Below, in pieces: positions 21,263-53,087 of a stretch of 64,000 bases of DNA; within the stretch, counting starts at the first letter, position 1, and each line of letters begins with the position of its first letter. The stretch is taken from positions 1 through 64,000 of the forward strand of contig JACZKQ010000108.1 in the NCBI GenBank assembly GCA_014859965.1. The letters are read 5' to 3'. The stretch is from Phycisphaerae bacterium (lineage in GTDB: Bacteria; Planctomycetota; Phycisphaerae; Sedimentisphaerales; Anaerohalosphaeraceae). The notes beneath the pieces are model-generated. The model was given only the letters and a program-made list of their open reading frames with translations. It ran no database searches and had not been told where the DNA came from. The position numbers and the translations under genes were made by a program.

Positions 21263-21328
21263 GGGTCCGTACGCTGACGAATGGCCCTGGCGAGCACGGG
21301 GCCGGCTTAAGTGTAATTGGGCGTGAAA

Positions 21329-22642
21329 ATGGCACCGACTCCTGAACTGACGGATATCGTCACGAGCGAACACTTCGGGCGAGTCGAGCGGAGTTTTCGA
21401 CGGCATTTCGGCCTCGGCCTGGAGATGATGCATCTGGACGGCGGCGACGTGCAGCGCATGTGTTCGGCCGACTGCAACCCGCGGTTCTGCAAACTGATCC
21501 GGCGTACGGCCGACGGCGGCGAGCGGTGTCGGCAGGATCGCATTGCGGCCCTGGGTATCAGCATACAGACGGGTCAGCCGCATATCACGTTGTGCCATGC
21601 CGGAATTGTCTACTGCTGCGTGCCCGTAATGGACGGCGACGTGCCTTTGGGAGGTGTTTTTTTCGGCAAGTGTCTTTGGCAGGAACCCGCCGAGGAGCTC
21701 GGCGAGGATATCTGCACACGGCTGGAGAATCTGGGGATCGGCCGACAGGCGATTATCGAGGCGGCGCAGGCACTCACCGTTATTTCAGGGCGGACGATTC
21801 ACCGAGCGGCCGAGTTTCTGTTCAATCTGCTGTACGAGGTGACAGAACTGGAGCCTGACGCCATTACGCGGCGGCGTGCGCGCAGCCAGCAGCAGGCGGC
21901 AATCAGTGAGTGTATCCAGCTCAACAAATACAATCCCGCCATGCCGGGGCACTATCCTTACGAGACCGAATGCGAACTGGTCAGCAAGGTGAGGATTGGC
22001 GATGGGATCGGGGCTGCGAAAATCCTTAGCGCACTCGTGGGTGCAATCATGGTGCAGAACCCGGGGGATATTCATGTCCTGAAGGCGCGGCTGGTGGAGC
22101 TGCTGAGCCTCTTGAGCCGGGCCGCGGTGGAAGGGGGGGTAGATCTTCGTTTGGTGTTGGAGAAGAACGTCGAGTCCATCAACCGGGTGCTGGGTATTGA
22201 TCGTCAGGAGGACCTCTGCGTCTGGATCGGCCGTGCGGTGAATGATTTTATCGAAAGCGTGTACATGTCACAGGACGCAGCCAAGGTTACCCAGATCAGG
22301 CCGGCGATCGATTTTATCGAGATGCATTACGCGGAGCCGCTGACGCTTACCAGGATAGCCAGGGCGGCATACCTGAGTGTGTCGCGGCTGGCGCACCTTT
22401 TCAAGGAGCAAATGGGTATTACAGTTATCGATTACCTGACGCACGTCAGGATTGGGCACGCGCGCCGACTGCTGCTGACGACGGAGAAAAGCTGCTCAAA
22501 GATAAGCTTTGAGGTGGGTTATAACAACCAGAGCTATTTCACACGGACGTTTAAAGAGACCGTGGGAATGACGCCTCGGCAATTCCGCGAAAAAAATCGG
22601 CGGCAGGAGGGCAGAGACTTGAAAGAACTGGCGACGGCGTGA
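21329..22642 (+). CDS. PocR-domain AraC-family transcription regulator
   Basis: The start is placed at the ATG at 21329 (437 residues); the frame could begin four codons earlier at a TTG, and no strong ribosome site decides. Residues about 10-175 form a PocR-type sensory domain, with a cysteine-rich core (MCSADCNPRFCKLI, ERCRQDR, LCHAGIVYCCVPV, GGVFFGKCLW) that may bind a ligand or metal, as in the propanediol regulator PocR. A helical linker follows. The last 105 residues contain two helix-turn-helix motifs of the AraC family (LTRIARAAYLSVSRLAHLFKE, then ISFEVGYNNQSYFTRTFKETVGMTPRQFR). It may control the ThuA-like and lamin-tail genes downstream (inference). Confidence 0.92.
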   Translation: MAPTPELTDIVTSEHFGRVERSFRRHFGLGLEMMHLDGGDVQRMCSADCNPRFCKLIRRTADGGERCRQDRIAALGISIQTGQPHITLCHAGIVYCCVPVMDGDVPLGGVFFGKCLWQEPAEELGEDICTRLENLGIGRQAIIEAAQALTVISGRTIHRAAEFLFNLLYEVTELEPDAITRRRARSQQQAAISECIQLNKYNPAMPGHYPYETECELVSKVRIGDGIGAAKILSALVGAIMVQNPGDIHVLKARLVELLSLLSRAAVEGGVDLRLVLEKNVESINRVLGIDRQEDLCVWIGRAVNDFIESVYMSQDAAKVTQIRPAIDFIEMHYAEPLTLTRIARAAYLSVSRLAHLFKEQMGITVIDYLTHVRIGHARRLLLTTEKSCSKISFEVGYNNQSYFTRTFKETVGMTPRQFREKNRRQEGRDLKELATA

Positions 22643-36698: not shown

Positions 36699-38096
36699 TC
36701 ACGGCTGCCGCAAAATCCGCAGAGCGATGTCGTCTGTGTATTCGGGCGATTGCAGGGTTGTCGTGCCGCCGGCGTGCTCGATCTGTTGGCGACCGTCGAG
36801 ATCGCCCGTTTTTGTGTTTAGCCATTCGGCGGCATAGCGGCCGGGCGGCAGGTCGACAGCCAGGGCGACTTTGGCGCCGCCGTTTATGTAGATCGCGTAC
36901 TGGCTGCCCTTACGGACGAGCGCACGGGCGGTCGCCTTCTCCGGGACGCCGCCTTTGATCACCGAGTCATCGGGGGTCATGCTTACGAAGTCGAAGCCTT
37001 CCAGAAACTCCTTCATTATCCGAATCTGCTTATGCATGGTCGGCCCGCCGCTGCCGGGGGCATTGACTTTGCCCGAGCCGTCCTCGTGGCCCACACTGAA
37101 GGAGTAGTCCAGGTTGCTGAAGATGCCGCCGCCGGCAATCATGAAGTCCCAAGCTTCCAGCCGATAGGGCTTCGGCTCGCTGCCGGAGAAGCCCGTTTCG
37201 TCATCGCCGATGACCTTGTTGAGGCCGTAGTTTTCAGTCACGGCGATTGGCGGCTTGGCATAATGAAAATTGAAGATCGATACGTTCGGATCGGGCTGCT
37301 CGATCTTCTGACTCTTGTTGGCGATGTTCTGGGCGATCAGGTGCTTGACGCCGAGGGCCGCCTCGGTCCGCACGATCGTTCGGGCGATGTGGGCCTGCCA
37401 GTCCAGCGTGACGCCGCCGAAGTAGGGTTCGTTGCAGATTTCGTAATACAGGTTGTCGAAATCCCTTAGCTCGGTAACGATTTTCTCGACCATCGCATCC
37501 TGCACGGCGAGCATCTCCGGGTGCTTCAGCGTGTACACGTCTGTGCGGACCATCTTGCCGATGCCGTTGATGTTGTTGATGGCGTTCATGGGCGACAGCA
37601 CCCACATATCGTCCTTGTAGAAGGGGCAGAAGAGCACCAACTCGACGACCACGCCGCGTTTCTGTGCCTGGGCGACAAAGTCACGCAGGCGGGCGAAGTA
37701 CGCATCATCCCATTTTGTCAGGTCGAATTTGTTGCCGCCGTTGCCGTACCCCGGCTCACAGGATCGCGCCCACGGGCAGATCAGGCTGTTCTTGAGCGGT
37801 GCAAGCGTGTTGTTTTCAATGTTGAACGCACCGACGGGTTCGCAGTAGGCGCCGGTAAACGTCCGCGTCAGGTTGAAGCCGTATTTGGCAAGCGTGTCGA
37901 AGTATTTGGCGTAGTCGAATTCGCGATTGAGCACGCCGCCATAATGTTCGCCGCTGGTGACGAGAATCGTTGGCTTTCCTCGCCAGAGCAGATAATGACC
38001 GTTGTCGGGGTGGAGCGAAATGGGTTTGTTCGGTGCGGCTATCGCGGCGACAGACGCTGTCATCAAAGCAGTCAGTACAAACACAGCGCTTCTCAT
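36699..38096 (-). CDS. Secreted clan-A glycoside hydrolase (GH5-like)
   Basis: The 465-residue protein starts at the ATG at 38096 with AAAGGAGG 6 bases upstream. A signal peptide (1-21) is followed by NGHYLLWRGKPTILVTSGEHYGGVLN, the usual opening of a TIM-barrel glycosidase of this group. The acid/base Glu is probably in YYEICNEPYFGG. The second catalytic acid is less clear; ETGFSG is a candidate. A C-terminal beta domain (about 395-465) ends the protein. The substrate is unknown. The gene follows a small lipoprotein gene on the same strand and may share its transcript. Confidence 0.8.
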   Translation of the reverse strand: MRSAVFVLTALMTASVAAIAAPNKPISLHPDNGHYLLWRGKPTILVTSGEHYGGVLNREFDYAKYFDTLAKYGFNLTRTFTGAYCEPVGAFNIENNTLAPLKNSLICPWARSCEPGYGNGGNKFDLTKWDDAYFARLRDFVAQAQKRGVVVELVLFCPFYKDDMWVLSPMNAINNINGIGKMVRTDVYTLKHPEMLAVQDAMVEKIVTELRDFDNLYYEICNEPYFGGVTLDWQAHIARTIVRTEAALGVKHLIAQNIANKSQKIEQPDPNVSIFNFHYAKPPIAVTENYGLNKVIGDDETGFSGSEPKPYRLEAWDFMIAGGGIFSNLDYSFSVGHEDGSGKVNAPGSGGPTMHKQIRIMKEFLEGFDFVSMTPDDSVIKGGVPEKATARALVRKGSQYAIYINGGAKVALAVDLPPGRYAAEWLNTKTGDLDGRQQIEHAGGTTTLQSPEYTDDIALRILRQP

Positions 38097-38154
38097 TGCA
38101 TCCTCCTTTAAAACGTTCATTGAACTTACCGCAAGGGGGCGTTCCGGGCCATCT

Positions 38155-38652
38155 CTACGGCGTCATTGCCGGGGCGCCGTCGGCGTCCCTTTCAAACCAG
38201 ATGCTTGCATCTAAAAACGGATCGTGAACAATAAGTTGTCCGTTGTCCAGCCGGAATTCGCAGTTGAGACGGGCGTCCTCGATAAACTGATACATCTGGT
38301 CGCCCTCGGTTCTGAATGTGCCCTGTTTTCGATCCGTACCGCCGTCAGTCATGGCGGCTTCGGCGACGAACCCCCCGTCCGGACTGAAAGTGTACCGGAT
38401 TTCCTTAATGAAATTCCCGATGTCTGCACCTTCTATTTTCACGCTGTGCCATCCGCCCACCAGCGGCGAAGCGGGCGGCGCCGGCGTGGCGGTTTCGGCG
38501 GCCTCCGCCGAGGTTCGGGACGCGACTGCCGCGGCCGTGCGGGCGGCGTGTTCCGCCCCGTCCGCGTCGGTGGGTTTTCGTTTGGAACAGGCCACCAGAA
38601 AAAGCGGTATTACGGCACAAAGGCAAACATACTGCCATCGAACGTTTATCAT
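38155..38652 (-). CDS. Small exported lipoprotein, function unknown
   Basis: The 165-residue protein starts at the ATG at 38652, which places a lipobox (LFLVAC) at about residue 21; the 71-residue frame extension has no signal. An Ala-rich linker follows, then a domain of about 100 residues beginning LVGGWHSVKIEGADIG and containing IRYTFSPDGGFVAEA, a lipocalin-like pattern seen in small proteins that check or bind ligands. I do not recognise a named family. It lies 58 bases before the clan-A glycosidase. Confidence 0.65.
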   Translation of the reverse strand: MINVRWQYVCLCAVIPLFLVACSKRKPTDADGAEHAARTAAAVASRTSAEAAETATPAPPASPLVGGWHSVKIEGADIGNFIKEIRYTFSPDGGFVAEAAMTDGGTDRKQGTFRTEGDQMYQFIEDARLNCEFRLDNGQLIVHDPFLDASIWFERDADGAPAMTP

Positions 38653-38886: not shown

Positions 38887-39714
38887 CTATTCGCGTACGG
38901 CCCATGTTTGGGGAGTGTGGCTGTCCGCATGCAGCCATTCTGAATGCCCGTCCATGAAGAGATTGTTGGCGCCGTTCTTTTTGTGGCGATTGTAGGCTAT
39001 TCGGCGGCCGTTGCCGGCGCCGCCCGAAGCGACATTCGGATTGCCTGTGCCGGGCAGATGCTCAGATCGGTAAACATCCATCCATCTCATAAGAAGGTAC
39101 AAATCATGCGGCGAATAGGTCCGGATTTTTTCCGCAGAAACGATCATGATGTAATTTTTATCTGTATCCCCGGTCGACTCGAGCTTGCCGCTGGCATTTA
39201 CACTGTACTGATAATAAGCATAGTCGGACAGGTAAACGACGGCCTGCCGATTTCGGATATTGGTTGTCTTTGTGAAGCCGTGGTGTTCTGTTGTTGCATC
39301 TCCAAGCGGCTTGGACGGGTTATGCTTCCACGCATTGACGATGTAATCCATGGTTTGTTCTCTGTCGGGATACGAGGGGCAATTGTATACGCCGACGTCC
39401 CAATAGCCCTGAAAGCCTTCGCCTCCGGATAGATAGGGACTGAGCAGGAGTTGCCAGTTTCCGGTATAGGGTTCGGGAACGCTCCAGTCAATTTGTGTTT
39501 CAGCAATTTCAGCACGCGGTATCCATTGGTCATTGGACTCTGCGTACGTGCTCACCGCAACGCCTATTTGTTTGAGATGGCTTGCACAGACTATCGCTTT
39601 GGCGGCGTCCTTCACCTTTTTCAGCGCCGGCAGCAGGACCGACAAGAGCAGGGCGATGATGGCGATGACTACGAGGAGTTCGATGAGCGTGAATGCCTTA
39701 TTGTTGGTCTTCAC
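38887..39714 (-). CDS. Prepilin-type exported protein (DUF1559-like, H-X9-DG)
   Basis: The 275-residue protein starts at a GTG with AAAGGA upstream. The N-terminus KAFTLIELLVVIAIIALLLSVL is a type IV prepilin cleavage and methylation site. The C-terminal part ends with NNLFMDGHSEWL, the H-X9-DG type motif of the very large DUF1559 group in Planctomycetota, which resemble type II secretion pseudopilins. Such genes often sit beside XylR regulators and glycosidases. It lies 41 bases after the giant CotH gene and probably shares its transcript. Confidence 0.88.
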   Translation of the reverse strand: MKTNNKAFTLIELLVVIAIIALLLSVLLPALKKVKDAAKAIVCASHLKQIGVAVSTYAESNDQWIPRAEIAETQIDWSVPEPYTGNWQLLLSPYLSGGEGFQGYWDVGVYNCPSYPDREQTMDYIVNAWKHNPSKPLGDATTEHHGFTKTTNIRNRQAVVYLSDYAYYQYSVNASGKLESTGDTDKNYIMIVSAEKIRTYSPHDLYLLMRWMDVYRSEHLPGTGNPNVASGGAGNGRRIAYNRHKKNGANNLFMDGHSEWLHADSHTPQTWAVRE

Positions 39715-39755: not shown

Positions 39756-42700
39756 TCATTTTTCCTGATTGTTTGGCAGCCCGGGTGTGGGTTCACCTGC
39801 CTGCCAGTTAATGACATCGTTTCCGTATTCGGCGGCCGCCCTGCGGTGCAGGGCATGTCCCGAACCGTCGGCCGAGGCCGGCCAGGGGTCGTCGCCTTCA
39901 GGGTGCGAACCGTCGCTGTAGATGACCCGGTCCACGCGGATATACTGCCGCACCCCGCTTGCGTTGACGTCGCCGGGTTTCGAAAGCTCGATTCGCTCGC
40001 CGGCGTTGTTGAGAGAGCCGCTGGACCATTCGAACATCTGTATGCCGGCGGGGGCGGCAAACATGCCGTTGAACGCCGTTCGGTTCTTGACCAGCAGTAT
40101 CCGCTCGCCGGATGCCAGGGTCACCGGCTGGCCCTGCGAATCGAGGATGAAGAGTTCGAATCCCCCGTCGTCTTCTAATTTCCACGGCGCGCCGGTCGTG
40201 AAATCATACAAAACAACCGAATCGTCGCTGATGTTGAGCAGTTCGACATACTCGGCGTCTGCATTGGACCCCGGATTATACATAATCTCGCTGATAACCA
40301 CCGGGCCGACCTTAGGATAGGCGTTCGGCATGCCGGGCGTCTGGCTGCTCAGGGGCACAAAGTTAAACGTTCCGCCGCTCTTCTGATAGCGTCCCAGCGA
40401 CACATCCATCTCGGAAGCGCCGAAGCTTTCCTGGTCAGTGTACCCCGTCATGACGCCGTCACGGCCGCTGGTCAGATAGACGGTTTCTCCGTTTTCGCTC
40501 AGACCGAAGTCAAAGTCGACGCCTTGGCGGAAAACTGCGTAGCCGCCGGGAGAGAGGATTGTGCCAGGCGGAATTTCGCACTTCATGAGATCTTTGCCGC
40601 TGTCGGACAGGAACCAGCCGCCGATATGGATGGTCTGATCGGCTGTCGTGTTATGCAGTTCGATCCAGTCGTTTCCGGTGTCGCTGTGGGCCAGCAGTTC
40701 GTTGATGACGATTGAGCCCAGCAGAGGGATAATGCCTGAATCGTCATGGCCGGGTGAACCGCCGATTTCGGCGCTGGGCCGCCAGCCGGCCTTTTGCCCC
40801 CATACACTCATCTCGGCATTCATCTCATCCTTTATGGTCAGCGAGAATCCCCGGCCATCGGTGATATCGTACCAGGCGTCGGAATACTGGAAATTGTGAA
40901 TTACGTTGCCGACGGCGTCGCAAAGTTCGATACGCTCGCCGCTGTTGTCCAGCGCGCCATTGAATTCGCCTGCGATGTGTCCGTCAAATGCCGGATAGCG
41001 TATGGCGAACGCCGCCTGGTTGCGGACGACGACCACGTAGTCGCCCGAAGGAAGCACCATGTCGCCAAAAGTAAAATCGAGGCCCTGGCTGAAGTGCACC
41101 AGATTCAAATTCACAGGCGACGCACCGATGTTCTTTAATTCGATATATTCGAAGTCGCCTTCGTCATAGGCACTGCCGTCGGGCGCAGCGGCCGGGTGAT
41201 ACATGATTTCGGTGATCCGGAGAACGTCGGCGAGGCCGCCCACGTCGAAGATTGCCGTCTCCAGCGCCGACCACGTGCCGCCGCTGAGCACCCGCGCTTT
41301 GGCGACAACGCTCTTGGTCAAGGTCAGCGGGTCGCTGTAAACCATACCTGCCGCCTCACCCGTAACCGCCTCCCGCGGATCGGCGCCGTCCAGCGTGTAA
41401 TAGATGGTTCCGACGCCGCCGCGATTGGTGATTGCAAGTTGAAAGCCGACCGGCGCCGTGCCGCCGCGCCGGCTCAGCAGGGGTGGGTCAATGGTGGGGT
41501 AATAACCCTGTGCCCTGAGAGAGGCAATGAATTTCTCGCCGTTGCCGGTCATGAAGCCCGGCGAGAGTATTTCGTTTTCGGCAGAGACCCAATCGACGTC
41601 GCGCGTGCGGGTGGGATGGCCGACGGCCTTGCAGGCATCGCCCCAGCGTGCCGACTCGGCGACGACCGCATCGCGAATGTAATTGTTCAGTGACAGAAAT
41701 CGCTCCTTGCAGTTGTCGTCGGTGAGGGCGCCGCCGTTGAACAAGTGCCCATACGATCGATCCGCAAATCGCATCATGAAGTCACTGTTGCGCCGCAGAC
41801 TGTGCCACAAAGCGGGGAGCGTCGCGCCGCCGCTTTTATTGCTGCGGAAGTCGGGATGGACCCAGCCGTTATTATGGCCGTCGCGTGTTGTTTTCCACGC
41901 CCACTCGCCGTCCCACGCGAAGTACATGAACGGCCCGGACACATCATTTCGATTGCCGCCCCACCAGTTGTTGCCCGGCCAGTCGGTTAAGCCCATGTGC
42001 CAGCAAAGCAGCAGGTAATCAATAAAACTGTCGATATTCAGGTATTGCTGCATTTCGGCGTAGTTGGCGGGGTCGGACATATTTTTGTCCTTGAGTGTGC
42101 CTTTCAGATAGTTCCAGCGGGCCGGACTTCCGCCTTTGGCGCCATCGTGGCTGACAGCAAACCAGTCCTCCTTTTCACCGCCCATATACATCGACGTGAA
42201 CCACGCATCGGGCCGTTCGACAGGGTTGTAGAGCCCCCAGTAAAGGCCGTTGATGTACAGGTGGACAAACGTGCCGTGCGAGCCGATGCCCGACATGGCG
42301 ATCTGGCTGTCGCGATACCACTGGTCCTCCGTGTACGTCGTTCGCTCCGGATTCCAGATTCTCGCCCAGGAACGGTTATTGCCGCCGCGAAGCACGATCC
42401 GATCCGCCTCCTCCGCGGCCGAATCGCCGTTGACAGGGGCATCGCGAAACAGCGACGAACGCAGCTTTGCATTGCCGTATTCCGAGCGGAAGTTCAGGCG
42501 CAGCGACCGCTTCATACGGCTGTGGCTGTGCGGCTCAACCCCGCAGTCGGCCTGGACGTTCTTATCCGGATCGGCGGGGTAAATCAACTCCACCGAGGCC
42601 GGCGACTCGCCCGAACCCCAGTAAAACGTGTCCATCGCAGCGCGGCCGGTGACCAGCGAAAGCGTGGGGATATCCGTCAGCGCCTTGAGCATAACGCCGC

Positions 42701-45037: not shown

Positions 45038-45065
45038 AGTATACATCAAACCGATAGACAAACAA
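45038..45065 (-). promoter_or_regulatory. Predicted promoter of the giant CotH gene
   Basis: On the minus strand, TTGTTT and TATACT are separated by 16 bases. The -35 box begins one base after a TGCGCAAAATGGG repeat. The transcript would start about 45 bases before the GTG at 44987. Confidence 0.6.
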
Positions 45066-45066
45066 T

Positions 45067-45101
45067 CCCATTTTGCGCACGTGCAATGCCCATTTTGCGC
45101 A
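45067..45101 (-). promoter_or_regulatory. Paired direct-repeat operator, probably XylR/AraC type
   Basis: On the minus strand, TGCGCAAAATGGG occurs twice (45101-45089 and 45079-45067), without a mismatch, 22 bp from start to start. The copy nearer the promoter abuts the -35 box. The same layout is found before the gene at 53149. Two direct repeats two helical turns apart beside -35 are the usual binding pattern of AraC-family activators. Confidence 0.7.
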
Positions 45102-45320: not shown

Positions 45321-45349
45321 TTGACACTGTTTAAGCCGCCATGTACAAT
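45321..45349 (+). promoter_or_regulatory. Near-consensus promoter of the PEP-CTERM gene
   Basis: A perfect TTGACA and TACAAT are separated by 17 bases, 107 bases before the start codon. This is the strongest promoter match in the window. Confidence 0.8.
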
Positions 45350-46287: not shown

Positions 46288-47343
46288 ATGGAAGAATACA
46301 ATATTGCAGTTGTGCCGGGTGACGGGATTGGCTGGGAGATCGTTCCGGCCGGGGTCGAGGTGATCAAGGCGGCGGCGAACGGTGACTTCGCCGTCCGTAC
46401 CGAGGTGTTCCCCTTCGGCGCCGGCTACTTTAAGGAGCACGGCGACTTTCTGCCGCCCGACGGCATGGATGTCCTGAGGCGGTTCGACGCGATCTATTTC
46501 GGCGCCGTGGGACTGCCGGATGTTGACGATACACTGCCCGCCCGCCTGTTCACATTCAAGGTTCGCAAGGCTTTCGACCAGTACGTCAATTATCGTCCCA
46601 CACGGCTGCTGCCGGGTGTGACGTCGCCGCTGGCCGGCAAGACGCAGGAGCATATCGACTTCATTGTCATCCGCGAGAACACGGAAGGGGAGTTCGTGCA
46701 GTGCGGCGGGTTTTTCAGCCCCGACAGCCCCGAAGGTATGGCGATGGACACCAGCATCTTCACGCGCAAGGGCATTGAGCGGGTGGCGCACTATAGCTTC
46801 CGGCTTGCCCGCAGGCGACGCAGGAAGGTGACCAGTATCACGAAATCCAACACGCTCATCCATTCGCTGGCTTACTGGGATCGCGTTGTCGGCGAGGTGA
46901 GCGGCGCCTATCCCGACGTCGCCTTCGACAAAATGTATGTGGACAATGCCTCGGCGAATTTCGTGCTGCGGCCGGAGCGGTTCGACGTGATCCTGACGAC
47001 GAATTTTATCGGTGATATACTTAGCGACCTCGGCGGGGCAATTATGGGAAGCCTTGGCCTGGGGCCCAGCGGCAACATCAACCCCGAGAAGACGTATCCT
47101 TCGATGTTCGAGCCGATCCATGGTTCGGCGCCGGATATTGCCGGCAAGGGCATCGCCAATCCCATCGGGGCGATCTGGTCGGGCGCGCTGATGCTCGAAC
47201 ACCTTGGGCAGCCGCAGGCCGCCGGGCGAATCGTCGCCGCAATTGAGCAAACGCTTCAGCAGGGCGTGCTGCCCGTCGATCTGGGCGGCCGGGCCCAGAC
47301 GCGGCAGATCACCGATGCCATATTAAAGAACCTCAAAGCCTGA
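46288..47343 (+). CDS. Tartrate/isopropylmalate-type beta-decarboxylating dehydrogenase
   Basis: The 351-residue protein is a member of the isocitrate and isopropylmalate dehydrogenase family: VVPGDGIGWEIVPA at the start, FGAVGLPDVDDTLPARL, QYVNYRPTRLLPGV (substrate arginines), RENTEGEF, and FEPIHGSAPDIAGKGIANPIGAI (NAD-binding). The wording around FGAVGLPDV matches tartrate dehydrogenases rather than LeuB, so an NAD-dependent oxidation of a 2-hydroxy acid, tartrate or a sugar-acid-derived malate, is most likely. It opens the catabolic cluster and ends six bases before the cyclase-family gene. No ribosome site is near, in line with a leaderless start. Confidence 0.85.
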   Translation: MEEYNIAVVPGDGIGWEIVPAGVEVIKAAANGDFAVRTEVFPFGAGYFKEHGDFLPPDGMDVLRRFDAIYFGAVGLPDVDDTLPARLFTFKVRKAFDQYVNYRPTRLLPGVTSPLAGKTQEHIDFIVIRENTEGEFVQCGGFFSPDSPEGMAMDTSIFTRKGIERVAHYSFRLARRRRRKVTSITKSNTLIHSLAYWDRVVGEVSGAYPDVAFDKMYVDNASANFVLRPERFDVILTTNFIGDILSDLGGAIMGSLGLGPSGNINPEKTYPSMFEPIHGSAPDIAGKGIANPIGAIWSGALMLEHLGQPQAAGRIVAAIEQTLQQGVLPVDLGGRAQTRQITDAILKNLKA

Positions 47344-47348
47344 GTGAG

Positions 47349-47984
47349 ATGTCACGAATCATCGATCTAACGCTGACGCTTGAATCTGGAATGCGCGGGG
47401 TGGAGATCACGCCCGCCCGGACGCTTAGCGAAGATGGATGGAATGCCGCGACCCTTCACCTGTACTCGCACTGCGGCACGCACATGGATGCGCCCATACA
47501 TTTTGGAGCCGGCAAACAAACCATTGATCAACTGGATGTCAGCCGCCTTATAGGCCCGGCCTGGGTGGTCGATGTCCGGCCGATAGGGCCCAAAGCCCTG
47601 ATTGGCGTCGAGCACATGAATGCTATTGCAGACAGAATAGAGCCGGGTGACGGTCTTCTGATCTGTACCGGTTGGAGCGCATACTGCGGCCGGCAGCGAT
47701 ACCGTGACGAACTGCCGCGAATCAGTGCTGATCTTGCTCGATGGTGCGTGCAGAAGAAGGTGCGCATGCTCGGTGTGGAGCCGCCTTCAGTTGCAGACGT
47801 TAACAACATACAGGAGTTGACGGCGATTCATCTGACGCTTTTTGAGGGCGGCGTTATTGTTGTAGAGGGCCTGGCGAATCTCGACGCGATTTCCAATGAG
47901 AAGGTAACATTCATCGCCTTGCCGCTCAAGATAGGTGGCGGTGACGGCGCGCCGGTGCGAGCGCTGGCCATCGAAGAGGACTGA
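47349..47984 (+). CDS. Cyclase-family (kynurenine formamidase-like) hydrolase
   Basis: The 211-residue protein has the metal-binding motif HCGTHMDAPIHF (HxGTHxDxPxHF) near residue 41 and GVEPPSVAD further on. The family contains kynurenine formamidases, isatin hydrolases and several poorly known hydrolases of lactones or amides. In this cluster a lactone or carbamoyl-type intermediate of sugar-acid breakdown is a plausible substrate (inference). It starts six bases after the dehydrogenase and is followed by the aldolase. Confidence 0.85.
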   Translation: MSRIIDLTLTLESGMRGVEITPARTLSEDGWNAATLHLYSHCGTHMDAPIHFGAGKQTIDQLDVSRLIGPAWVVDVRPIGPKALIGVEHMNAIADRIEPGDGLLICTGWSAYCGRQRYRDELPRISADLARWCVQKKVRMLGVEPPSVADVNNIQELTAIHLTLFEGGVIVVEGLANLDAISNEKVTFIALPLKIGGGDGAPVRALAIEED

Positions 47985-48054
47985 GATAACAGAGCGAAAA
48001 GTTGGAACACCATGCCGAAGTGCGAGCAGGCATGATCTGAAAGGAGCCGAGTTA

Positions 48055-49110
48055 ATGAAGAATGACTACTTTCATCGCGTTGCCGCCCTGACGCCCACGA
48101 AGCTGTGGATTAACAATGTCACACCCGATGAAGCCGAGTGGGCCATTGCCGCCGGGGCCCTGGGCTGCACGCAGAATCCTTCCTACACATGGAAAATGCT
48201 CACGCACGAAGACGGCAAGGAACACGCGCTGTCGCTGCTGGACGAAACCCTCAAAGAAAGCGACGACGATAATGAGGTCGAGTGCATCCTGCAGCGCAAG
48301 CTGGTAAAGAGAATCGCCGACAAATTCATGACGGTCTACAACAGGACCAACGGCGCACACGGTTACGTCAGCATCCAGGGCGATCCGATCCATGAGGAAG
48401 ACCCCCAGGTGATTATTGACGAGGCGCGCAAGAACCGGCAAATGAGTCCGAACATCATGGTCAAAATACCCGCCACGGAGGCGGGTCTCGCGGCGATGGG
48501 CGTTCTGATCGAAGAAGACACGCCCCTTAACGCGACGGAAGTGATGGGCCTCAGTCAGGTGATCGACGTGTGCGAGATGTACCACAAGATTACAGCCCGC
48601 ACCAAAAAAAAACCGATCATGTACTTCTCCCTGATTACGGGCATTTATGATGAATGGTTCGGCAAAGAGGTGAAGAAGTTGGGCATTGAGATATCCCCGG
48701 ACGTCGTCTATCAGGCCGGCATGATCGTCGCAAAAAAGGTTTACAAGTTTGTGCATGACCGCGGCTACCAGCTCGGCTTCATAGGCGGGGGCGTGCGAGG
48801 CTTGCAGCATTTCACCGAGATGGTCGGCGGCGACGTGTGCATCACCATGAACTGGATGGGACAGGTCGACAGACTGCTGGAACTGAATCAGCCCGTTGTT
48901 TCCCGCCTTTTCAACCCGGTTCAGGAACACGTGCTGGATGAATTGCTGTCCAAGGCGCCGCCGTTCAGGCAGGCGTATATGGAAACCGGACTGGACGTCA
49001 AGGACTATGAGACCTACGGTCCGGTCGAGTATTTTCGAGATATGTTCATAACCTCCTGGGAGAACGCGCTGAAGCTCATCAAAGAGCGACGCGCGGCCCT
49101 GGTCTCATGA
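48055..49110 (+). CDS. Transaldolase-family protein
   Basis: The 351-residue protein starts at the ATG at 48055, with AAAGGAG 9 bases upstream; the open frame extends 40 codons upstream without a site. It follows the transaldolase pattern: LWINNVTPDEAEWAIAAGALGCTQNPSY at the start, then the Schiff-base lysine in NIMVKIPAT (Lys 137), and GFIGGGVRGLQHF. It is larger than small fructose-6-phosphate aldolases and keeps an unusual C-terminus. It may split a phosphorylated sugar or sugar acid in the pathway of this cluster. The exact substrate cannot be read. Confidence 0.85.
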   Translation: MKNDYFHRVAALTPTKLWINNVTPDEAEWAIAAGALGCTQNPSYTWKMLTHEDGKEHALSLLDETLKESDDDNEVECILQRKLVKRIADKFMTVYNRTNGAHGYVSIQGDPIHEEDPQVIIDEARKNRQMSPNIMVKIPATEAGLAAMGVLIEEDTPLNATEVMGLSQVIDVCEMYHKITARTKKKPIMYFSLITGIYDEWFGKEVKKLGIEISPDVVYQAGMIVAKKVYKFVHDRGYQLGFIGGGVRGLQHFTEMVGGDVCITMNWMGQVDRLLELNQPVVSRLFNPVQEHVLDELLSKAPPFRQAYMETGLDVKDYETYGPVEYFRDMFITSWENALKLIKERRAALVS

Positions 49111-49203
49111 GGCGAATTGGAACCGTGGACACGTCGGCCCAATGCGCTGGCACGGACAAGGAACAGTCAGCGGCGTGAGTCGACCTGAGCATAGGATGGC
49201 ATT

Positions 49204-50682
49204 ATGGAACAGTCTCCCGGTCGCATGAGTCGCCAGCGTTTCGTCCTCATCGGCATTCTCTTTTTCCACAGCGTCAACACATATATGGACCGTGCGTGCA
49301 TCGCGTCTGCCATCGACGAGATCACGCAGGACCTGTCGATCACGGGGCAGATGATGGGACTGGTGCTGGGCATTTTCGCCGTGGGTTATGCGCTGTTCCA
49401 GATTCCTTCGGGCTGGATCGCCGACCGCTTCGGGGCCCGCAGGGCCCTGGCAATCGTTGTCTCGGTTTGGAGCCTGTTTACCGCACTGACCGGCGCGGCG
49501 CGCACGGCCCTTCAGATGCTGGTGCTGCGGTTCCTGTTCGGCATGGGAGAGGCGGGCGCCTTTCCCGGCGCGACCCAGGCGTTCTTCCGATGGCTGCCGG
49601 TTCGGGAGCGAGGTATTGCGCACGGCATCAATTTCTCCGGCAGCCGTCTGGGCGCGGCCCTGTCGCTGTTCCTGATGCCGTGGCTGATCGTGCAGATCGG
49701 CTGGCGTTGGACGTTCGTGGTTAACGGTGTCATCGGTCTTGTTTGGGCAACGGTCTGGCTGCTCTGGTTCCGTGACAATCCAAAAGACAATCCTAAGGTC
49801 AACAAGGCCGAACTGGACTACATCCAAGAAGGGCAAACCAGCGACTTCACCGCTGCGATCAAGGCTTCCTTTGCCCAGGTGTTCACATCGCTCAACATGT
49901 CCCTGGCAATGGCGCAGTATTTTGCCAGCAATGTGACGTTTTTCATCAGCCTGAGCTGGCTGCCCAATTACATTAAGAACCAGTGGCCGGACGATCCCAA
50001 CGCGATCTATTATTCGGCGGTGCCGCTTATCTTCGCCGCCTTCGCCAACTGGATTGCCGGATCCATGGTGACCGGATTATACAAACGGGGCTATCACGTG
50101 GGATCCCGGCGTCTGACCGCGATCACGGGGTTTGCCTTGGGCGTGATCGGGCTGCTGCTGGCCACTCAGACGAAAAATCTCGTTTTCTTAGCGACCGACA
50201 GGGCCCAGATCCACTGGTTTGTGTTCTGCTTCGGCCTGGCGACGTTCGGGGTCGACATGACACTGAGCCCGAGTTGGGCCTTCTGCAACGACATCGGCGG
50301 CAAGAATTCCGGGGCCGTCTCGGGCGCAATGAACATGGTGGGCAACATCGGGGCGGCCTTGAGTGCGATTATGTTTCCATTTTTCAAAGACGCCAACGTA
50401 TTCTTTCTTCTGGCTGCGGGGCTCAACCTGGCGGCGATTGCGGTGTGGTGCTTTATGAATCCCAACCGTGCATCGGACGCGAGGTTGTCGCCGGCGGCGG
50501 TACGCCGGCGGTTTGTCGCCATGCTGAGCACCCTGGTGGTCGCCACGGGCGCTGCGATTGGCACGCATATCTACTTGTCGGTGCAGAAGAAGGCCGACCC
50601 GCCCGCCGAGGCGGTCGAGACGACGGATCCCCTGCAGCAGGGCGACAATCCGGGCGAGCCGGACGCCCAAAATCCGAAGTAA
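49204..50682 (+). CDS. MFS transporter of the sugar-acid (ACS/ExuT-GudP) group
   Basis: The 492-residue protein has about 12 hydrophobic helices and the major facilitator motifs: YALFQIPSGWIADRFGARRAL after helix 2, FGMGEAGAFPGATQAFFRWLP in helix 4, and NPKDNPKV in the central loop. These runs are typical of the anion:cation symporters that take up galactonate, glucarate and hexuronates. The C-terminal 65 residues add an extra helix (ALSTLVVATGAAIGTHIYL-like) and a charged tail not found in common members. Within the cluster it is the likely importer of the substrate. Confidence 0.88.
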   Translation: MEQSPGRMSRQRFVLIGILFFHSVNTYMDRACIASAIDEITQDLSITGQMMGLVLGIFAVGYALFQIPSGWIADRFGARRALAIVVSVWSLFTALTGAARTALQMLVLRFLFGMGEAGAFPGATQAFFRWLPVRERGIAHGINFSGSRLGAALSLFLMPWLIVQIGWRWTFVVNGVIGLVWATVWLLWFRDNPKDNPKVNKAELDYIQEGQTSDFTAAIKASFAQVFTSLNMSLAMAQYFASNVTFFISLSWLPNYIKNQWPDDPNAIYYSAVPLIFAAFANWIAGSMVTGLYKRGYHVGSRRLTAITGFALGVIGLLLATQTKNLVFLATDRAQIHWFVFCFGLATFGVDMTLSPSWAFCNDIGGKNSGAVSGAMNMVGNIGAALSAIMFPFFKDANVFFLLAAGLNLAAIAVWCFMNPNRASDARLSPAAVRRRFVAMLSTLVVATGAAIGTHIYLSVQKKADPPAEAVETTDPLQQGDNPGEPDAQNPK

Positions 50683-50707
50683 TTTGCAGAGAGTGAAAGG
50701 TACAGCG

Positions 50708-51745
50708 GTGAAGAAGCTCAAGGGTGTTTGCGTCGGGGCGGGATACTTCAGCCATTTTCAATATGAAGCATGGCAGCGCATCCCGGAAGTGACGATTACC
50801 GCCCTGTGTAACCGCAATCCTTTGCGTGCCAAACCCCTCCTGGAGCAGTATGGGGTGCCCGGCCATTATACTGATTACCGCGAGATGCTCGAAAAGGAGC
50901 GGCCTGACTTTGTCGACATCATCACGCCTCCGCCCACCCATCTGGAGATGTGCGCCGTCGCAGCCGACATGGGCATTCACGTGATATGCCAGAAGCCGCT
51001 GGCCCCGACATTCGACGAGGGGTGGCGCATCGTCGAGCATGCCGAGCGGGCGGGTGTGCGCTTCATGGTGCACGAGAACTGGCGGTTCCAGCCCTGGTAT
51101 CGCGAGATGAAGTGGCTGCTGGAAGCCGGCGTCATCGGCCGCCGCATCCACACGCTGTGTTTTCGCTCGCGCATGGGGGATGGCTGGGGTGAGGACGCAT
51201 ACCTGGCCCGCCAGCCTTACTTCCGCGAGTACCCGCGTCTGCTGGTGTACGAAAACGGCGTACACTTCATCGATACGTATCGATATCTGGCCGGCGAAAT
51301 CCAACGGGCGTATGCCGTGCTGAAGAAGCTCAATCCGGTCATCGCCGGTGAAGACTGCGCAATCGTTCTGTTTGATTTCGAGTCCGGCGCCACGGGCCTG
51401 TGGGATGCCAACCGCTACAACGAAGTCAATTATCCCAGTCCGCGGTACACCTTCGGAGAATGTCTCATTGACGCCGACGGCGGCTCGATACGTCTGTATG
51501 CCGACGGCCGACTGACCGTTCAGCAATTGGGCAAGGCCGAAACCGTTCACAACTATCCGCACGAGGACAGAAACTTCTGCGGCGACTGTGTTTACACAAC
51601 TCAGCGTCACTTCATCGACCGCCTGCTGGACGGTGCACCTTTCGAGACCAACGGGCAGGATTATCTGAAAACATTAGCTGTTCAGGAGGCCGTCTATGCG
51701 TCGGCGGCCGCCGGTATGCCCATGGCGGTTCAGTACGCCAGGTGA
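50708..51745 (+). CDS. Cytoplasmic Gfo/Idh/MocA-family oxidoreductase
   Basis: The 345-residue protein starts at the GTG at 50708 (AAAGG upstream); a longer frame overlaps the transporter gene and is a shadow. There is no signal peptide. VCVGAGYFSHFQYEAW is the Rossmann start, with ALCNRNP after it; QKPLAPTFDEGW carries the catalytic Lys of the EKP-type motif (here QKP), and MVHENWRFQPWYREMKWLL and ENGVHFIDTYRYL follow. It probably oxidises or reduces a sugar or polyol with NAD(P). It lies 25 bases after the transporter and just before the regulator. Confidence 0.88.
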   Translation: MKKLKGVCVGAGYFSHFQYEAWQRIPEVTITALCNRNPLRAKPLLEQYGVPGHYTDYREMLEKERPDFVDIITPPPTHLEMCAVAADMGIHVICQKPLAPTFDEGWRIVEHAERAGVRFMVHENWRFQPWYREMKWLLEAGVIGRRIHTLCFRSRMGDGWGEDAYLARQPYFREYPRLLVYENGVHFIDTYRYLAGEIQRAYAVLKKLNPVIAGEDCAIVLFDFESGATGLWDANRYNEVNYPSPRYTFGECLIDADGGSIRLYADGRLTVQQLGKAETVHNYPHEDRNFCGDCVYTTQRHFIDRLLDGAPFETNGQDYLKTLAVQEAVYASAAAGMPMAVQYAR

Positions 51746-51754
51746 ACAGGAGAT

Positions 51755-52924
51755 ATGGCCAAAGAACCGAGAGTCATTCTGTTGATCGTGCCCGCCCGGG
51801 CGTTTGACCGAGCGCTGCTGCGCGGCATTGCGCGGTATGCAAACGAGCACGGGCCGTGGACCTTCCTGCGCGAGCCGGCGCATTACAGGCCGATCGGCTG
51901 GAAGAAAAAGGTTTTGGACCGACTGCACAGCGGCCAGGTCGACGGGCTCATCATGCGAGAACCCGAGCGCATCGAGGATATCCTCAAAATGCATATCCCG
52001 GGCATCTGTGCGCCCGTCACGCAGCGCACGGTGGACGGCATGATCAACGTGGTTATCGATAACGAGGCTGTCGGACGAATGGGCGCCGAGCATCTGTTGG
52101 AGCGGGGCTTTCGTCATTTCGCCTATTGCGGATTCGAAGGCATCTACTGGTCTGAAAAGCGGTGCCAGGGATTTGCCTCGCGGATTCGGCAGGCCGGGTT
52201 CAAAGTAGACGTCTACGCGCAGCCCAGATCGCGCGATATTCAAGGTCTCTGGGAAATGGAACAACCCGTTCTTGCCGACTGGCTGCAGGGACTGCCCAAA
52301 CCCGTCGGCCTGATGACCTGCAACGACGACCGCAGTCAGCATGTCAGTGAAACCTGCCATGCCGCGCGATTGCACGTGCCGAACGACATTGCGATCATCG
52401 GCGTGGATAACGACGAATTTGTCTGCGAAATGGCCAATCCGCCGCTTTCCAGTGTTTGCTTAAATGCGGAGGCGATCGGCTATCGTGCGGCGGCGACCCT
52501 CCACGAGGTCATAGCCGGCCGTGCCGTTGAAGACACCACCATTATTGGCGGGCCCACGTACATCGTCGCCCGAAAGTCTACCGATATTATGCTCATTGAC
52601 GACGCCGTGATCGCAAGGGCCCTGCGACACATTCGCCAGAGTACCCATGAGCCGATTCAGGTCATTGATGTTGCCGAGGTGCTGGCCATTTCGCGGCGAA
52701 GTCTCGAACAGCGTTTCCGCAGGGTCGTCGGCAGGTCCGTCCATGAGCAGATCCTGTACGAACGGGTCGACCGTATCATGCGTCTGCTGCTGGAGACGCG
52801 GATATCCATTTCACAAATTGCCCATATTCTTAATTTCTCCAGCACCAAGCAGTTAGACCGCGTCTTCAGCCGCTATACCGGGATGAACCCCTCGGAATAC
52901 CGGAAGCAGTACTGTATTAAGTGA
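51755..52924 (+). CDS. XylR-type AraC-family regulator
   Basis: The 389-residue protein starts at an ATG with AGGAG upstream. It has the XylR layout: an N-terminal LacI-like sugar-binding domain (residues about 5-275, VILLIVPARAFDRALLRGIARYA, and IAIIGVDNDEFVCEMANPPLSSV) and a C-terminal AraC domain with two helix-turn-helix motifs (VAEVLAISRRSLEQRFRRVVG and ISQIAHILNFSSTKQLDRVFSRYTGMNPSEYRK). It likely senses a sugar released from the target glycan. Matching paired operators lie at 53023 and 45067. Confidence 0.93.
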   Translation: MAKEPRVILLIVPARAFDRALLRGIARYANEHGPWTFLREPAHYRPIGWKKKVLDRLHSGQVDGLIMREPERIEDILKMHIPGICAPVTQRTVDGMINVVIDNEAVGRMGAEHLLERGFRHFAYCGFEGIYWSEKRCQGFASRIRQAGFKVDVYAQPRSRDIQGLWEMEQPVLADWLQGLPKPVGLMTCNDDRSQHVSETCHAARLHVPNDIAIIGVDNDEFVCEMANPPLSSVCLNAEAIGYRAAATLHEVIAGRAVEDTTIIGGPTYIVARKSTDIMLIDDAVIARALRHIRQSTHEPIQVIDVAEVLAISRRSLEQRFRRVVGRSVHEQILYERVDRIMRLLLETRISISQIAHILNFSSTKQLDRVFSRYTGMNPSEYRKQYCIK

Positions 52925-53022: not shown

Positions 53023-53057
53023 TGCGCAAATTGGGTATGTACTTTGCGCAAAATGGC
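53023..53057 (+). promoter_or_regulatory. Paired direct-repeat operator, probably the XylR site
   Basis: TGCGCAAATTGGG (53023-53035) and TGCGCAAAATGGC (53045-53057) are 22 bp apart start to start; they differ at two bases from each other. The second copy ends one base before the -35 box. The geometry is the same as at 45067-45101, and the XylR/AraC gene ends 98 bases upstream. Confidence 0.75.
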
Positions 53058-53058
53058 A

Positions 53059-53087
53059 TTGTATCCCTTGCATTGATCAGCGATAAT
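53059..53087 (+). promoter_or_regulatory. Predicted promoter of the DUF5060 glycosidase
   Basis: TTGTAT and GATAAT are separated by 17 bases. The start codon is about 62 bases downstream of the -10 box. The -35 box lies one base after the second operator copy. Confidence 0.6.

Follow-up and report, generated by a model that had tools for sequence, protein, structure and literature searches.

Pairs of 13-bp direct repeats precede two promoters that face in opposite directions in the window, the stretch of 64,000 nucleotides from a Phycisphaerae bacterium that was analysed here. In all likelihood (a probability of about 0.85), these repeats serve as operators for an XylR-type regulator, the product of the gene at 51755-52924, and define a sugar-responsive activator regulon which joins a giant CotH-prepilin unit to a secreted glycosidase-like gene (Table 1). 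The CotH surface protein and enzymes that digest polysaccharides are probably turned on jointly. XylR-type control is itself already known, and this regulon is an added member.

Table 1. Positions of the operators, promoters and genes of the proposed regulon in the window
Feature	Position	Strand	Description
Glycosidase-like gene	36699..38120	minus	Weak GH5, apiosidase-like and Collagen_bind_2 matches
Small lipoprotein-like gene	38155..38652	minus	Likely ATG at 38652; very weak lipocalin-like match
Prepilin-like gene	38887..39714	minus	N_methyl plus DUF1559 match
Giant CotH gene, 1743 aa	39756..44987	minus	GTG start after GGAGG
Promoter 1	45038..45065	minus	TTGTTT-N16-TATACT; read from sequence
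Operator 1	45067..45101	minus	Two TGCGCAAAATGGG half-sites, 22 bp period
Catabolic cluster ahead of regulator	46288..51745	plus	Domain and homology matches
XylR-type regulator, 389 aa	51755..52924	plus	Peripla_BP_3 sensor and AraC-type HTH_18
Operator 2	53023..53057	plus	TGCGCAAATTGGG and TGCGCAAAATGGC, 22 bp period
Promoter 2	53059..53087	plus	TTGTAT-N17-GATAAT; read from sequence
Secreted glycosidase-like gene, 1004 aa	53149..56163	plus	DUF5060, Collagen_bind_2, GH115_C

Operator 1 consists of two exact TGCGCAAAATGGG copies on the minus strand (45067-45079 and 45089-45101), repeated with a period of 22 bp as the original prediction described. Its promoter-side copy is followed by a single A and, again as predicted, by TTGTTT (45065-45060), 16 nt and TATACT (45043-45038); 80 bp separate the end of the operator from the GTG start (44987) of the CotH gene. 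Operator 2, on the plus strand, comprises TGCGCAAATTGGG (53023-53035) and TGCGCAAAATGGC (53045-53057), followed by A, TTGTAT (53059-53064), 17 nt and GATAAT (53082-53087), and ends 92 bp before the ATG (53149) of the glycosidase-like gene. The two promoters lie about 8 kb apart. The two pairs were earlier said to match in copies, spacing and -35 contact: spacing and distance to the -35 do agree, whereas each copy of operator 2 carries one mismatch to TGCGCAAAATGGG, and TGCGCAAATTGGG and TGCGCAAAATGGC are not identical. In both operators, same-direction half-sites stand about two helical turns apart (period 22), and the proximal half-site abuts the -35 box with one base between them. Operators 1 and 2 share 31 of the 41 bases that run from the first copy to within the -35 region, but agree at just 3/10 positions in the 10-bp inter-copy spacers. 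This difference between the spacers indicates that the sites do not stem from recent duplication, and a duplication origin is rejected. Near-identical half-sites with divergent spacers are as would be expected for selected contacts, not for a copied fragment.

The giant CotH protein has an N-terminal signal-like segment, PKD, CHB_HEX_C and CotH kinase domains, and four LTD domains; the prepilin-like gene begins 41 bp past its gene. The earlier labels of a surface protein and its prepilin partner are putative, drawn from domain matches and this gene order. Membership of the lipoprotein-like gene and of the glycosidase-like gene at 36699-38120 in the CotH operon is uncertain. The predicted structure of the 36699-38120 protein (pLDDT 33) is too poor for use, and solved-structure searches with the two window glycosidases gave no match. 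CotH domains are matched 26 times in the 5.28 Mb genome, several of them in open frames 1700 to 2800 residues long; in the pair scan, the CotH gene at 39756 is the only one of these genes preceded by the operator pair.

The regulator gene stops 98 bp ahead of operator 2. It is the last gene of the plus-strand catabolic cluster that sits between the two promoters and which encodes a tartrate-dehydrogenase-like Iso_dh protein, a cyclase/arylformamidase-like protein, a transaldolase-like protein, an MFS transporter and a Gfo/Idh/MocA oxidoreductase; no operator pair was found before this cluster. The protein combines an N-terminal LacI-type, periplasmic-binding-protein-like sensor (PF13377, E 7.6e-34, residues 111-276) with a C-terminal AraC-type double helix-turn-helix (PF12833, E 7e-19, residues 307-385), and resembles E. 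coli XylR along its full length (4fe4, E 5e-46, residues 3-384). Its closest homologues are only 48% identical, and a scan of genome contigs detected distant relatives only, the closest being in Phycisphaeraceae MAGs (35% and 33%). Its helix 2, SSTKQLDRVF, departs from the family pattern EHIARYF. This protein is very probably the regulator of operators 1 and 2.

We infer binding, activation rather than repression, an inducer and co-induction in the following terms. Each 13-bp copy would constitute one half-site, read by both helix-turn-helices of one AraC-type domain, and a dimer tied via the LacI-type sugar-binding domains would hold the two same-orientation half-sites, two helical turns apart. 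Since the promoter-side half-site abuts the -35, it is proposed that the bound protein contacts RNA polymerase and activates transcription. Binding of a sugar freed from a polysaccharide to the sensor would then turn on the CotH-prepilin unit and the DUF5060 glycosidase in opposite directions. By analogy, both window promoters would be activated by a sugar that these enzymes produce; the weak apiosidase-like and Collagen_bind_2 matches may hint at the inducer, as a lead only.

The 51755 protein might instead bind both sites as a repressor, or the promoters might answer different signals via extra factors, so that there would be no co-induction; the -10 and -35 of promoter 1 (45065-45038) are fair matches, in a system known here from sequence alone. 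Such behaviour is unlikely, since the sites lie just upstream of the -35 and not over the -10 or the start, which is the usual AraC-type activator geometry (PMC4514859, PMC12125979), since the window -35 boxes are weak, and since E. coli XylR, like Vibrio XylRA, works as an activator (PMC4514859, PMC12125979).

The genome yielded four HTH_18 genes, two of them of XylR type. The second XylR-type gene (C115:29329-30459), whose product is 41% identical to 51755-52924, has a different pair of its own behind it, TTCGCGATATGG-N9-AACGCGATTTGG (CGCGATnTGG, period 21), beyond which lie prepilin and LamG genes. The third HTH_18 gene, at 21317-22642 on the plus strand of the window, carries a PocR sensory domain and stands between creatininase-like and ThuA-like genes. 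The fourth, on contig C155 (locus L181), encodes a 325-aa AraC-type protein without an XylR-type sensor and also adjoins a prepilin-like gene. No motif pair was found near either of these last two genes, and the PocR-type gene, being of that type and without such a pair nearby, was rejected as the regulator. The identity between the two XylR-type proteins and the likeness of half-sites across the family would allow the C115 regulator, or a remaining AraC-type gene, to own operators 1 and 2 in trans; this is quite improbable given that the C115 regulator adjoins a different site, that the remaining proteins are of other kinds, and that the 51755 gene adjoins operator 2.

Single 13-mers with up to 2 mismatches occur in the window about as often as chance predicts (5 found against 3.3 expected). 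The spaced pair TGCGCAAANTGG-N10-TGCGCAAANTGG, which has 22 specified bases and was searched with up to 3 mismatches allowed, has exactly two matches in the 5.28 Mb genome; these are operators 1 and 2, neither with any mismatch in the specified bases. The reversed control has 0 matches in the same 5.28 Mb. By our own arithmetic, chance would supply about 0.03 matches with as many as 3 mismatches and fewer than 1e-6 exact ones, figures which are approximate because the N positions were picked after the sites had been seen. The genome-wide search finds the pair confined to two promoters and not frequent at random. This privacy, together with the adjacent regulator gene, supports the earlier proposal that one regulator serves both promoters. 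That the repeats are chance occurrences or a duplication leftover without regulatory meaning, as the single-copy count taken by itself would permit, is very improbable in view of the unique spaced pair, the differing spacers and the recurrence of the same architecture beside XylR-type genes across the order.

Across the order, 41 of 59 genomes hold XylR-type homologues, and 91 XylR-type loci, including that of the window, were examined. A motif-free test (350 bp upstream, at least 10/13 identical, periods 15 to 44 compared) detects a direct repeat of period 21 upstream of 28 of 87 XylR-type genes, with other periods at 9 or fewer. CGCAAAnTGG pairs with a period of 21 or 22 and a score of at least 14/18 adjoin 41 of 84 XylR-type genes, against 0 for the reversed motif, 2 in simulated sequence, 1/81 farther away and 26 for twelve other periods together. 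At a score of at least 15/18, 25 of the genes have such a pair, compared with 0 reversed, 0 simulated, 0 farther away and 5 for the twelve other periods. About half of the XylR-type loci are without a clear pair nearby. The form of the site in relatives is a direct repeat, CGCAAAnTGG-N11-CGCAAAnTGG, abutting a -35: T occupies positions 3 and 4 past TGG, the start of the -35, in 26/31 and 24/31 good sites, and the offset is the same as in the window. Most of these sites are upstream of the regulator gene and point away from it; fewer are downstream and point along the gene, as in the window. The single-regulator reading draws further support from these XylR-type genes, which adjoin like sites, some with several nearby.

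The period is 21 bp in most relatives and 22 bp at the window sites. When the generic pair is searched in the 59 genomes with up to 2 mismatches, period 21 is found in 78 places versus 17 for the reversed pair, and period 22 in 24 versus 9 (own sums). The 22-bp period and the unusual predicted second recognition helix set 51755-52924 apart from most relatives and, like the XylR-type loci that lack a clear pair, count against its assignment to operators 1 and 2.

Several sites per regulator are also found in other loci, so that the window arrangement fits a recurring plan. In locus L171, for example, an XylR gene has five sites no more than about 10 kb away, all of a private variant, CGCAAAATGA. 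Three of them face into the genes of a PEP-CTERM protein and two large proteins, and the remaining two are upstream of a prepilin gene and that of another secreted protein, yet are oriented the other way. Regulators of relatives adjoin other sugar genes: in L173, two sites beside the XylR gene precede FGGY carbohydrate kinase and L-arabinose isomerase genes. In L172, the genes behind three sites encode an oxidoreductase, a PEP-CTERM protein, and a prepilin with a LamG protein next in line; in L177, a unit made up of PEP-CTERM, LamG and prepilin genes has two period-22 sites. The examined stretches of these two loci contain no XylR-type gene. In the 1.4 kb downstream of each of 36 sites, prepilin genes number 3 in sense and 0 in antisense orientation, too few for statistics. 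The reversed pairs of L171 (L171:4775 and L171:10877, plus strand) are perhaps distal or looping sites.

The sensor domain of Pseudomonas MtlR is not known to be of the LacI type, and its half-site differs from that of the window. This AraC/XylS-type protein shares with the window system a pair of similar blocks, here 15 bp each, which have a 22-bp offset and end next to the -35; they occupy -72 to -58 and -50 to -36 (PMC4514859). E. coli XylR (PDB 4fe4, 4fe7) has the same two-domain build over its whole length and likewise has direct-repeat operators for a sugar-responsive activator. However, the half-site in the window is CGCAAAnTGG and not one of the AT-rich repeats described for XylR-type sites, and a giant CotH protein and a prepilin are among the proposed targets. 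In Vibrio, the activator XylRA responds to xylose and has its direct-repeat motifs at five promoters of a single locus. It likewise represents an XylR-type activator serving several promoters inside one polysaccharide-utilisation locus (xul), but phylum, motif and gene content are different (PMC12125979).

Literature searches found no paper on XylR-type operators in planctomycetes, and a clade-wide CGCAAAnTGG operator was not found in the papers searched. Tentatively, and with a little less than even confidence, we propose that XylR-type sensors of the order share an apparently undescribed code of CGCAAAnTGG pairs with small regulator-specific variants, switching on giant CotH/LTD proteins, LamG proteins and prepilins with glycosidases. 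If so, CotH/LTD, LamG and prepilin surface proteins would be parts of a sugar-induced apparatus for polysaccharide capture. Such genomes encode many giant CotH, LamG and prepilin proteins, mostly without a known role; an operator shared with a sugar sensor would tie one CotH protein to polysaccharide use in a testable manner. The operator could moreover be used to predict local regulons of XylR-type regulators across the order.

A third pair of the family type, TTCGCAAAATGG-N9-AACGCAAAATAG (period 21), occurs elsewhere in the genome (locus L169, C101:3059-3089, minus strand), before an Iso_dh gene whose product is 39% identical to that of the gene at 46288 in the window; the gene after this Iso_dh gene is arabinofuranosidase-like. 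Contig C101 yielded no AraC-type gene, so this pair may be a remote target of one of the two XylR-type regulators of the genome. In the window, a near-consensus promoter, TTGACA-N17-TACAAT (11/12; 45321-45349, plus strand), precedes a PEP-CTERM gene divergently from the CotH promoter, and the PEP-CTERM protein has a short similar stretch in common with the N-terminal part of the CotH protein.
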